A DNA stretch of 64,000 nt from Polytrichum commune (lineage: Eukaryota > Streptophyta > Polytrichopsida > Polytrichales > Polytrichaceae): contig OX485808.1 of NCBI GenBank assembly GCA_950295325.1, forward strand, positions 19,860,527 through 19,924,526, in the 5' to 3' direction. The position numbers and the translations under genes are program-made. Position 1 is the first letter of the stretch; every line of letters begins with the position of its first letter. Of this stretch, positions 1,113 to 19,176 are shown in pieces. Under the pieces are notes generated by a model, which ran no database searches, was not told where the DNA came from, and saw nothing but the letters and a program-made list of their open reading frames with translations.

Positions 1113-1606
1113 GGGGGGTGCAGTTTACTAAACATGTACAAGTATACATGAGTGCACAAAAGGGGTTAATAATTTGAACTTCGCCATACTACGTATACAT
1201 ATGCTCGTAGTTGTATGGAGGACCTTTAAGAATATACAACATTTGTACTTGTATGGTAGTGTCACTAGAATAAATAGCATAAGTTTCTTAATGTACAATA
1301 ATTGGACATATGATGTTACTCATCATTTAATGATAAACTTAGAAATAATAATTGCATTCTCTTTTATAACATATATCACAAGATGCTTATGAGTTACATC
1401 CGGGAGGTGAAAAAGTCTTTGACAACCTTATTGATGAATGCTAGGATTTTTCATTATACATTTCATAGGGTTGATTATTATTCAATAGTATATTTGTATA
1501 TTTATGTTAATGAATTTATATGAATTTCATTGTAAAATAACTACAAATATTGATGAATGATTCAATATTCTAACCACATGTGCCAGTGTGTAAGCAGAGG
1601 ATGATG

Positions 1607-1969
1607 GGAGCTAAACAACTCCTAGTTGAAGATGGATGGATTGGAGTTAGACAACTCCAGATTAACAACATGTGCACTGGGGTTAGACAACTCTGCATAT
1701 AGTGCATTGGAATTAGACCATTCCATATTGAGAACATGTGCACATGAGTTAGACAACTCTCGATGAGGTGCACTGGAGTTAGACCACCCCAGAATTGGAA
1801 AGATGAATGTTATTCATTGGAGTTAGACAACTCTAATGAATAAATAGATCTAGTTGGAATTAGATAGTTCCAACTAGAAAGAAGGATGGATGAATCCAAT
1901 TGGAATTAGACAGTTCCAATTGGAAGAATGAGGTTGAGATAAGAGATGGAAGAAGGTTCTAGAAGAACC
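1607..1969. repeat. Array of about ten hairpins sharing the core GGARTT-AGAC-AAYTCC
   Basis: Short inverted repeats follow one another at 1607, 1643, 1679, 1709, 1745, 1775, 1811, 1849, 1895 and 1955. Most share a loop AGAC or AGAT between arms such as GGAGTT and AACTCC. Arm sequences differ between units but stay largely complementary within a unit. At 1849-1878 and 1895-1924 the pairing extends to 11 bp per arm through unit-specific flanks. At 1811-1842 it is 14 bp with one mismatch. The first units are spaced 36, 36, 30, 36 and 30 bp, and 1667-1732 and 1733-1798 form a 66-bp higher-order repeat. The minus-strand frame across it (1570-1773) is only the repeat read as protein. Confidence 0.8.
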
Positions 1970-2258
1970 AAAGATAGAAGATTCATTGTAGAACTAAAAG
2001 ATAGAGCTATGAATAGAATAATTTTATTATATGTAAAAATAGAAAGTGAAAGTAGTGCTTCGGCATAAGAGGAGGCTCGGGGGAGGAGAGAGGATCTTTT
2101 TTGTCTCTCTCCTATGGTCGGGTAGTTGAGCTTAGACCAAGACCTACTTTGGTCTACGATTGTAATTTGACGATAAATAAACTGAGTGTTTCAACTTGTC
2201 ATTTTGATTGATAATTGTGATTGTGAAAGTAGGTGACAAAGATGTGAGAGGTTTGTTA

Positions 2259-2261
<3 letters not shown>

Positions 2262-2289
<28 letters not shown>
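2262..2289. repeat. (CA)n microsatellite
   Basis: About 14 uninterrupted CA units. It lies just before the third conserved block of the dispersed element. Confidence 0.95.
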
Positions 2290-2423
2290 GTATTGTCCCT
2301 TGTGTTTTTATCATTGAAATTGTATGTGTATTGCATTTCTTTTCATTTTAACTTGTATATAGATGGTTTTAAGAGTATGTTGCGAATGCATGTGATGCTT
2401 GGTTTTAATGAGAGGTGCACCCT

Positions 2424-5855: not shown

Positions 5856-6225
5856 ACACAAGAGCGCCTAATGTGGGCTCAGTAGTCATGTATAGGTTGT
5901 TTAATTATTGCAGTTTGTTCTGGTTCCATCAAGTGCACCCAAGAGAACCCACCACATTCTCTTAGTTGGGTCTTTGGTGGCTTCAGATTGTTTTTTGGCA
6001 TTGAAATGAAGTGTTTTAATTGCCTCAAACCAAAAAAAGAAGAAAACCCAAAACATGCCCACGAACATTTTTGGTTGTTGGAAGTTGGATCCGATTGGAA
6101 TTCGTCTCATCCGATGGGTATTTGAAAATCACAAAGTTTCGGGAGTGGGAGTTGAACCATGAAATTTATAAGACATCAAAACCTAAGCTTATTTTTCTCC
6201 TTGGATGATTGTATAGATCCTTCTA

Positions 6226-6400
6226 GTTGTGGAAACTATTGAGCCTAGAATGGTATTTTATTCTAAGCGCATAGTCCAATCTCCTTGTAACATTGTCTTT
6301 TTAGTGTCCTTTTTACAACAACAAGTTTTCCCATATACCACTCAAGTATAGTTATCTGGTTCAAAAGTCTAGTGACCACATAAGGCCCACGCACTTTACC
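6226..6400 (+). repeat. Copy of dispersed repeat family C
   Basis: Contains 'ctattgagcctagaatgg' and 'gcatagtccaatct', followed by 'ataccactcaagtata'. The same order recurs at about 8984, 9715, 23540, 36960, 59460 and 61100. No coding sequence. Confidence 0.6.
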
Positions 6401-6688: not shown

Positions 6689-8330
6689 CCTAAGAATATT
6701 GATGAGCTCAAGACAATGTAAATTCTACATTAAGATGATTGTCAATGTCCTCTACTTTAATATGTATAATATATGAAAGAACACCACTTGACCAAAAGAT
6801 TTTCCTCCTTGAGTGATTTTATAAGGGCCAAATGTCATTTGTAATGCATAGTTTTCACGTGAAAAAGCAAAGCGATTCATATAATACTTCAAATCAAAGT
6901 TAAGTTAACTCCTAAATACATGGGGGTTCCAACTTGGATGAAGACATTGATATAGAATGTGCATTAAGACATTGTTGGACTTGACATACGTCAAAATGTT
7001 GTAAGGGCTAAATTTTAGACTACATCCATGCAAGTAGAATAAGGATCGCAAAATTTTGATCCCCACCAAATCAATTTTCTAGAATTTTCCTTGACATAAA
7101 AAAATAGATCAATTTAAATGTGAAATAGAGCAAAATAAGTTTCTACGTAATCTTGTTGTAATATGAGTTTTATAACTTCATAAGAGAATGAAAGAAGCTA
7201 ACGTTGACATGAACCTTCTTGATTTCCTAGAATATTGATGTTTAAAAATAAATTTAGAGTTCCAACTACTTGAAGGTTCATAAATGAATAGTTTTTGAAT
7301 GTCAATTCGACCGGTTCGGTTGTGATGGAATTAGAAGCTAACGGTTCCAAAGGCAAGGGAGGAAAACAAAGACTAAGAGAAAATGGAGTTCGCCTTGAGG
7401 AAAACATCTTTGAAAATGACTCACAACCACTTCATGACTTCTTAGGCATGTAGGGGTTAAGGTTCTTGCAATGACCCCCTCTCATTTGCATGGTGAGAAC
7501 ACAACTATGACAAGAATAGTTAACTCAAAACCCAATTGGAAAATGCCGTCATTGAGCATGTACTAGGGCATACTTGGTACGAATGAATGGCGCATGCAAT
7601 AAGTAAACAACAACTACAACATGAACGGTAACTAATATGGGGATTCGAGTGTCTATCTAGCTAGAATCCTTTGATCTATTTGAGAAGTCATCCATTGCCC
7701 CCAATAGGCTACCATTGACCCCCCCCCCCCCCACCACCACCACCACCACCATTTACATGATTGTTGGGTCAAATGTGTGGACTAGAAGCCAAAGAGATTG
7801 ACAATCGGGTCCCTCAAAACACGTCAACTACACAAGAACTTCCCATGTCTACATGTAGTACAAAGCAAGAACGTTGGTATTCAAACCTTCAACGTGTCGG
7901 TAATAATCTCACCATGCTACCACCGCTTCGTTCCCTTCAAACCGTGTTATGTGGAAAGGAGCACAATGCCTCCGAGTTGTCCCCACTTCATCGAACATTA
8001 GCGTGTGTTTGCGGAATCTAGCGAGCGAAAGTCCACACTAACTTAGTTGGAGGAAAGTGTGGTTACCACCATTAACGGTTATTGGGCTTGTGGCATGGTT
8101 GAATTCGGGAACTCGTGTGAGGCGAACATAACATGCTATGCTTGGTTGGGAAGTGGCCGTGCAAGAGGAGCCATGATGGAAGGGTGGCCAATTAGTCAAT
8201 ACATTCACGTCCCAACACCTGACAGTCGGCGGACATGCAGAGTTCGACCGACTACCACTACCACTACTACTACGACTAGTGTGGCTGCCACTAACTCACC
8301 AGAGGCCTGACATTTGGGTGGCATTGTTGA
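6689..8330. other. No gene recognised; C14/(CCA)n tract
   Basis: Contains 14 C at 7719-7732 running into (ACC)n up to about 7751. Overlapping frames at 7761-8310 sit in slightly GC-richer DNA. The 87-residue frame at 8047-8310 ends in a threonine run made by an (ACT)n repeat. No domain is recognisable. Confidence 0.5.
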
Positions 8331-17365: not shown

Positions 17366-19176
17366 TATTCCATCGGTAAGATGAATCTATAGAAGTGCAA
17401 ACTCAATTTCATGATTTTACAAACCAATTTAGGATTATGTTCTATCAGTTTCATTTGAATCACAAACCAAGTTCACTATATAGACAACCAAATTAACTAA
17501 ACTTCCAATCAACTTCACTACATGTTGTGAACTTCATGATTTGGTACCCATATTCACAACTTTACAAAATTGATTTTATGAATTGTATACTCTTAATTTA
17601 CAAAGAATGGTACATCATGTATAAGGTTCTCCTAATCGCTCCCCACGACTAGCTCTACCAAAATTTATATTGACCTTGCTTATCCAACCTTGGACCATGT
17701 CTGTAGTGATTGTTTGTGCACCATCATTAATGTGACCTAAACATGTTTGGAGATCATTTAGTTGGGCATATCTTTTGATGTGTCCATTCTGCAGCATTGA
17801 GAAATGGACAATATGATGGCAAACAGAAGCAGGTGTGTCCAACATCTTCAAAAGCTTGTGGTATTTTACAAAATTTGTGAAATGGGACATTGTCCATGAA
17901 CCTTTGTCTACCAAGGCTAGGAATGACCTTGGCATGAATGAACTCTAAGAACTTGTTTGAATTGTAGGCACCGAGTGTGACATTGTGTGCAATGACAACT
18001 TCACGACCAACTGCAACCACCAAAGATAAATTTCGTCCCCTTTGAGTTGGACGAGTTCGTTGGCATCTTTGTCCTCGACGAGCCATTCCAAATCGATGCG
18101 TCAAGTGTAAATTGAAACCAACCTCATCCACATATACAACATCAACCATATTGTCACTAAGCTCTAAATTTTTTTGACACCACTCTATATGCTCTCTAAG
18201 ATGCTATTCATTGTTATAATCATTTGGTACATAGTGCATCAACTTGAGGGTAAATCCAGCTTGACTTTGAATGGCTTTGGAAATACAACTACTATATACA
18301 AGGCGTGGGACTTGAAAAACTTCATTTAGCTGGCGATGACGAGATTCGACAATGATGTTTGGATCTACATGAAGCCTCTCTACAAACCATTGCATGTGTT
18401 GGTCTTGTAAAATTGGATAGCGAACACCACCTTTGTGTTTGGGCACTAATTGACCATTTTCATCAAAAACCTCGGCTATGCTCTTGATAGTTTTGTAAGG
18501 ATAACTGTCAAGTTTACTTGTATCAACATAAGAAAAACCTTTATTAAAAATAAAATATATGATTCATGAGTGTAGTACATAATCTATGCAGTTATATCTA
18601 CACGGATGACTAGGCATAGCGATTGAGTTGAACTAGTTTAATTCTCTAATAAATGTGTAAGCAAATTGAGACTAAGTGTACCATCAATTTCTAGAAGTGT
18701 AAAATCTACCACATGCACAATCTCCATGCGGAAAATTCTCAATGGCAAATTGGACCTTATATGTTAGATGCAATTCACGTTGCAATGGTTTTTAAACACA
18801 TACTATAGCAGAGAACCCTCCTTACTGAATGGCTTCGGCCATCCGAGATCAACTAAGGTGGAAAAATACTCCTACAACCACTACCTTTAAGAGACACATA
18901 GACAAAGCAGTTCAAACATCTTTCCTTTATGGCAAATTCTTGTCATTGCTTGATAACATTGCCGTATCCAATCTAATGATAAAGAATCAACTACCATAAG
19001 TCGAACCTATCCAATTTAGAGGGAGACTATTGCATAGACTAAACTACAGACACCAACAATCTCCAACAAGAATTTGTGGCAACCAAGTTCTCAACGGTTG
19101 ATCTAAATGTTGTGTGTCCGCAGCAAAATATTTAAAGGAACATTACAAGCAAGTGGATAGTCTTTATTTCTCAAAT

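Follow-up and report, generated by a model that had tools for sequence, protein, structure and literature searches.

A tandem array of dyad-symmetric hairpin units in the putative U3 region of a Ty3/gypsy LTR from Polytrichum commune

What kind of element carries a tandem series of hairpins with a shared core, and whether the pairing of their arms is kept by selection on DNA or on RNA, are the questions raised by a locus of Polytrichum commune (assembly GCA_950295325.1, contig OX485808.1), analyzed here as a window of 64,000 nt read on the forward strand. An initial annotation had described positions 1607-1969 of this window as an array of about ten hairpins with conserved loops and covarying arms.

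The region lies within a sequence of 730 bp (TGTAAAATAA...GTTTGTTACA; positions 1531-2260, forward strand) whose ends are common to dispersed copies and which, in an alignment of genome copies, displays the termini TGT...ACA at 1531 and 2260. It is flanked by a 5′ target-site duplication, TTCAT (1526-1530), matching at four of five positions the 3′ copy, TTCAC (2261-2265). The 3′ copy runs into a (CA)13 microsatellite (2263-2289) that starts directly at the 3′ end of the LTR and may have changed the duplication. Among the 23 LTRs listed with both ends, six (L002, L010, L016, L018, L030 and L035) bear perfect 5-bp duplications (CACCC, GGCGG, CCAAT, CATTT, CTCTT and GTTGG), the remainder being ends of longer elements, decayed or mis-ended. 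Since ends of the TG...CA type and 5-bp target-site duplications are LTR features, we read the 730-bp sequence as the solo LTR of a Ty3/gypsy retrotransposon, presumably left behind by LTR-LTR recombination. A search of the P. commune genome (407.8 Mb, 64 contigs) with window positions 1560-2300, in which 40 of 700 candidates were scored, yielded at least 52 matches to the LTR in at least about 40 places.

The array-bearing LTR belongs to a multi-copy Ty3/gypsy retrotransposon. Two such LTRs, 94% alike, occur in an 8.6-kb stretch (L036) and enclose Pfam matches to Retrotrans_gag, RVP_2, RVT_1, RT_RNaseH_2, Integrase_H2C2 and SH3_Tf2-1, in the domain order gag, PR-RT-RNaseH-INT; six of seven ORF pieces matched Pfam, and the piece at 5914-6252 had no Pfam match. 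The sequence ahead of the 3′ LTR of this element (CGACGGTAGTGTCAT) contains no clear purine run. An RT search of the same genome recovered relatives (81-91% identity), of which several contain an open frame of 1539 aa, and the array is retained in two sampled elements with such a frame (L095 and L096), the LTRs of which are nearly identical (99.75%). After the 5′ LTR of L096 lies a PBS-like TGGTATCAGAGC, which we take to be assigned to initiator tRNA-Met; similar sites, with at most two mismatches, are found in L096, L103 and L105.

Several side observations concern the mobile elements of this genome. In L036, GGTAGTGTCAT stands ahead of both LTRs (116-126 and 7230-7240), which suggests that an internal 3′ end precedes the first LTR as well, and elements may be chained as LTR-internal-LTR-internal-LTR. 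The RT matches comprise many elements with 1539- or 1551-aa open frames and identical RT scores, which suggests recent activity of at least two Ty3/gypsy families. Elsewhere in the window, an ORF piece on the reverse strand (17757-18203) with a DDE_3 Pfam match (E 5.8e-18) represents the remains of a DDE transposase, presumably Tc1/IS630-like.

On this sample from the P. commune genome, the array appears to be a trait of this one Ty3/gypsy family. It is present in all four sampled elements whose RT is 81-87% identical to that of L036, and no matching units were found in the upstream pieces of eight RT relatives at 49-67% identity. Six of these eight (L098, L100, L101, L104, L106 and L107) are informative, the region before their PBS-like site lying inside the piece; L097, with that region mostly outside the piece, and L099, without a PBS-like site, are not. 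A ninth relative, at 66% RT identity (L102/L108), contains a truncated piece of the array-bearing LTR with two units. We therefore rejected the array as a wider trait of related Ty3/gypsy lineages, given that all six informative relatives are devoid of its units. Some of the pieces from RT relatives hold unrelated hairpins, from one to seven per piece, and L101 (reverse strand), from a related Ty3/gypsy lineage, carries a perfect palindrome, TGGACTTCCA-TGGA-TGGAAGTCCA, at 449-472 and 2046-2071, about 230 bases ahead of each of two PBS-like sites (677 and 2277).

The LTR is ordered as a short 5′ part, the array, a heat-shock-like motif, a TATA-like box and a presumed R-U5 with AATAAA. The TATA-box-like TATATGTAAAAATA lies at 2028-2041 and the AATAAA, a candidate poly(A) signal by inferred role, at 2176-2181, both on the forward strand; with a loose expression, a TATA-like string was found anywhere in a 135-base piece in 64 of 74 aligned pieces, which include some DNA counted twice. 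Because the array is located upstream of the TATA-like box and of the presumed transcription start, we place it in U3; with start and poly(A) sites as inferred here, its transcript would also form part of the genomic RNA, close to the 3′ end. Downstream of the units, GAAGGTTCTAGAA (1952-1964, forward strand) resembles GAAnnTTCnnGAA, which we take to be the heat-shock element, and is seen in 59 of the 74 aligned pieces spanning the site. It is overlapped by a palindrome, GGTTCT-AGA-AGAACC (1955-1969, forward strand), which accounts for the end of the annotated feature at 1969: the reported series of about ten hairpins is borne out as nine homologous units at 1607-1924, but the palindrome is separate from them. 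The forward strand of the window contains five heat-shock-like motifs, against about 0.24 expected on both strands, and the presence of four more besides that of the LTR (19648, 33885, 33979 and 34022) makes the LTR motif alone weak evidence. The retrotransposon family may be heat responsive, as is the LTR of the Ty1/copia element ONSEN; the likeness to heat-responsive LTRs of that type consists of a GAAnnTTCnnGAA heat-shock-like motif in the LTR.

The nine tandem units are of the form GGARTT-AGAC-AAYTCC and were delimited on the forward strand from sequence, stem counts, folding and comparison of typed copies. Unit 1 (GGAGCT-AAAC-AACTCC, 1607-1622) has a C.A mismatch, units 2 (1641-1660) and 3 (1678-1695) form stems of 8 and 7 pairs, and unit 4 (GGAATT-AGAC-CATTCC, 1709-1724) has T.C as its loop-closing pair. 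Units 5 (TGAGTT-AGAC-AACTCT, 1745-1760) and 6 (GGAGTT-AGAC-CACCCC, 1775-1790) are followed by unit 7 (1810-1843), with an uninterrupted stem of 15 pairs in the window copy, and by two tail units with stems of 13 pairs, one of type T (1849-1878) and one of type Tn (1895-1924), the latter with TCCAATTGGA inside each arm. TCCAATTGGA reads the same on both strands, so that each arm of the last unit is at the same time a direct repeat of the other, and in L024 this unit has been lost between them. The initial picture needs correcting here, since units 1, 4, 5 and 6 are mismatched.

These hairpins are real and exceed chance expectation. First-order Markov simulation of 1000 sequences gave an average of 0.93 and a maximum of 4 stems with 6 or more pairs (WC+GU) and a 4-nt loop, against 5 observed, and none of the simulated sequences contained a stem of 13 pairs or more with such a loop, against three (15, 13 and 13 pairs) in the array. 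The suggested folding check, made on RNA, gave z-scores of −5.95 on the forward strand and −6.20 on the reverse strand, far better than shuffles, none of 100 equaling either. The recurrence of the core was likewise confirmed, with 991 exact genome-wide matches to TTGGARTTAGAYARYTCCAA (466+525) against 0 for the reversed pattern. No matches to Rfam 15 at gathering score were obtained in the window, and a tRNA search found none.

Variation among copies was analyzed in 93 arrays (86 distinct) from 91 of 101 loci, split into 827 units. The ten loci without an array comprise L037 (a partial LTR), the RT relatives L097-L101, and L057, L060, L080 and L086, which were taken for LTR similarity, failed the two-anchor rule and were left out of counts. 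All 93 arrays are short, with 7-14 units, and lie between the same LTR flanks, which leads us to reject a free-standing satellite or new repeat class; this result holds partly by construction, since an array had to show both flanking anchors to be sampled, and LTR flanks were checked for part of the 991 TTGGARTTAGAYARYTCCAA matches. Eight or more units are present in 83 of the 86 distinct arrays and seven in the other three. Head units are spaced mostly by 30, 36, 38 and 44 bases. Tail units recur with a period of 46 bases; most arrays (76 of 86) contain 2-4 of them, the range being 1-6. These counts are approximate, since unit types were assigned by nearest reference and in 15 of 86 arrays this procedure placed the last unit in a head type. 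Ordinary tandem duplication multiplies this last, 46-bp unit type, and two compensated pairs are all that distinguishes the two tail units in the present LTR, so that the template switching or foldback replication put forward to explain the paired arms need not be invoked, though either may have contributed.

Across all ten unit types AGAC is the commonest loop, even where the flanking pair is broken, and the half-sites are conserved as well. The imperfections are themselves widely shared: a C.A beside the loop-closing pair in 76 of 80 typed copies of unit 1, T.C as the loop-closing pair in 75 of 81 copies of unit 4 and 76 of 78 of unit 6, a sixth pair T.T in 72 of 86 copies of unit 5, and T.G beside the closing pair commonly in several unit types. 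As scored with a regular expression, unit 7 has one extra base in its 3′ arm in 49 of 86 arrays and none in 4, the other 33 being unfitted; the uninterrupted 15-pair stem of the window is hence unusual among copies.

The arms covary in part, through few independent events. Compensated differences between unit types were observed at offset 3 (G-C/A-T), offset 9 (G-C/A-T) and offset 11 (T-A/C-G), and only the last two of these, both compensated, separate type T from type Tn in the window. Covariation of the arms, as initially proposed, is therefore upheld for these two pairs, although on few independent events, and the claim that the flanks are unique to each unit was overstated, the arms at 1849-1878 and 1895-1924 differing at two stem pairs. 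Tail arms form, at offsets 7-13, 6.23 of 7 pairs with their own partner against 5.61 of 7 with the partners of other units, and head arms form 2.81 against 2.54, an advantage that is real but small. Compensated changes within unit types are few, with seven cases listed, the largest being a change from G-C to A-T at offset 6 of unit 1, in 11 of 80 copies against 2.3 expected if independent, which is possibly one inherited change.

Evidence of constraint is similarly divided. In tail units, shared and rare variant types stand at 29:88 in stems versus 13:15 in outer spacers (Fisher p=0.035, with totals rebuilt from per-site values), and tail loops are as free as spacers (common/rare 0.90 versus 0.87). 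Constraint is no stronger on head stems than on the sequence beside them (common/rare 0.49 versus 0.51-0.59), and head loops are low (0.21). The proposition that pairing has been kept and not left to decay accordingly finds support in the scarcity of shared changes in tail stems and in the persistence of units in elements with the 1539-aa frame, but not in the head stems or the tail loops. Selection on the array is plausible, and it would be modest and uneven.

We interpret the array, with a rough probability of 0.55, as a multi-site, dyad-symmetric cis-regulatory region in the U3 of a Ty3/gypsy LTR, upstream of its TATA box. A host DNA-binding factor, probably a dimer, would bind each of the near-palindromes, in which a GGARTT half-site and its inverted counterpart enclose the spacer AGAC; with about ten of these sites, transcription of the element would be additive and tunable, unequal exchange or slippage would provide new sites, and selection among replicating copies would keep their dyad symmetry. 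The array is located between the LTR ends, upstream of the TATA-like box and beside the heat-shock-like motif, both strands fold alike, and the prevalence of AGAC even beside a broken pair fits a site recognized in duplex DNA. Against this reading, retention of the asymmetric AGAC spacer is not required of a simple dimer site, stems of 13 pairs exceed the usual dimer site, tail loops vary like spacers and head stems like flanks, and shared stem changes favor G.U, which hints at RNA. Selection of a sense RNA hairpin predicts that changes making G.U should be tolerated more than those making A.C, whereas a DNA palindrome should treat both equally. Shared stem changes (in at least 4 units) comprise 21 G.U and 7 A.C variant types, against 24:23 among rare ones (1-2 units), which are mostly post-insertion changes (Fisher p=0.053); leaving out offset 2, the ratios are 18:6 and 22:22. 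On a tree of 70 arrays, 16 of the 86 having been dropped for want of a typed unit 1 or unit 7, G.U and A.C changes stand at 23:8 on internal and 54:45 on terminal branches (Fisher p=0.061). Such numbers, together with the frequent T.G beside the closing pair and the strong sense-strand fold, speak for hairpins that act in the element RNA, near its 3′ end and before the poly(A) site, with possible roles in packaging, stability, dimerisation or 3′-end processing. The asymmetry nevertheless fades when all variant types are pooled (50:40, p=0.34) and reverses among types found in exactly three units (5:10). Unpaired columns on internal branches lean the same way, with C>T exceeding G>A 1.4-fold and A>G exceeding T>C 1.5-fold per base, so that the 23 G.U among 31 changes compare with an expected fraction of 0.59 (p=0.10), and unit types and related copies, though not independent, entered the variant counts as if they were. 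The wobble asymmetry (p 0.05-0.10 with controls) thus leans towards RNA but falls short of proof of RNA selection. The frequent C.A and T.C mismatches of units 1, 4 and 6, the equally good antisense fold and the absence of an Rfam match also weigh against a role in RNA, which we regard as unlikely. Doubtful to a slightly greater degree is its more specific form, in which about ten AGAC-loop hairpins would be kept by compensatory, G.U-tolerant change, for example to offer Gag or a host RNA-binding protein a repeated platform on which to dock.

The array might, finally, have no function, its palindromic tandem repeats being homogenised by unequal exchange, slippage or hairpin-templated copying in reverse transcription, and propagated as passengers of the element. 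The 46-bp steps in which tail units change number (1-6 per array), the loss of the last unit of L024 between arms that double as direct repeats, and the lack of excess constraint in head stems and tail loops are all in keeping with such a by-product, but shared changes are rarer in tail stems than in spacers, the loop and half-site core recur in ten unit types, and both are also found in the four sampled elements at 81-87% RT identity. We deem it improbable, if the least so of the alternatives to the cis-regulatory reading.

Comparison with known systems places the array among LTR features described in part before. According to the portion of PMC2829016 considered here, the LTRs of 13 Sireviruses contain palindromic repeated motifs (RM) with dyad symmetry, clustered upstream of the TATA box in at least 8 copies per element and 3-14 in the 3′ LTR, for which that portion proposes, and only proposes, a regulatory role. 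Hence the array does not fall outside known repeat classes, as first suggested: it belongs to the U3 part of a Ty3/gypsy LTR, and LTR motifs of palindromic form had already been reported for Sireviruses in that source. The likeness extends, on the same portion, to many short dyad-symmetric motifs in the upper half of the LTR, some of which have intervening bases as the present units do. Sireviruses, however, are Ty1/copia elements, whereas the present element is Ty3/gypsy, with RT before integrase and Ty3-type domains. As far as that portion describes them, Sirevirus motifs have a CGG-CCG core (except in Tnd-1) and lie in CpG islands, while the present core is GGARTT-AGAC-AAYTCC, with stems of up to 13-15 pairs and an ordered set of distinct unit types. 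Further motif copies upstream of an envelope gene and multiple polypurine tracts are also characteristic of Sireviruses. A Sirevirus array proper was thus rejected, the element being Ty3/gypsy and the CGG-CCG core absent, although several LTR palindromes upstream of the TATA box are shared. For Tnt1 and retroviruses, the part of PMC3601003 consulted describes U3 tandem repeats that lie before the promoter and are linked to the regulation of transcription; by that partial account, compared by layout, the present array has more units, and each of them is nearly palindromic. The Drosophila gypsy insulator is presented in the consulted part of PMC2374998 as 12 related sites for a host factor, Su(Hw), within 340 bp, and is likewise a dense array of related sites inside a gypsy element; on that description, limited to position and factor, it resides in the 5′ untranslated region and its factor is known, whereas the present array lies in U3. 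The literature searched, with most subscription papers outside its scope, yielded neither the exact array motif nor, among the papers listed, a Ty3/gypsy counterpart of a palindromic U3 array or a cis-acting retrotransposon RNA element consisting of a string of AGAC-loop hairpins.

Palindromic U3 motif arrays, which the consulted portion of PMC2829016 presents as Sirevirus-specific among the Ty1/copia elements compared there, occur in a Ty3/gypsy element as well, with a different motif. Their presence in both groups suggests a repeated origin by tandem duplication, favored in LTR promoters. With its many copies and ordered unit types, this family of P. commune offers a usable system in which to ask whether dyad symmetry serves a DNA-binding dimer or an RNA structure.
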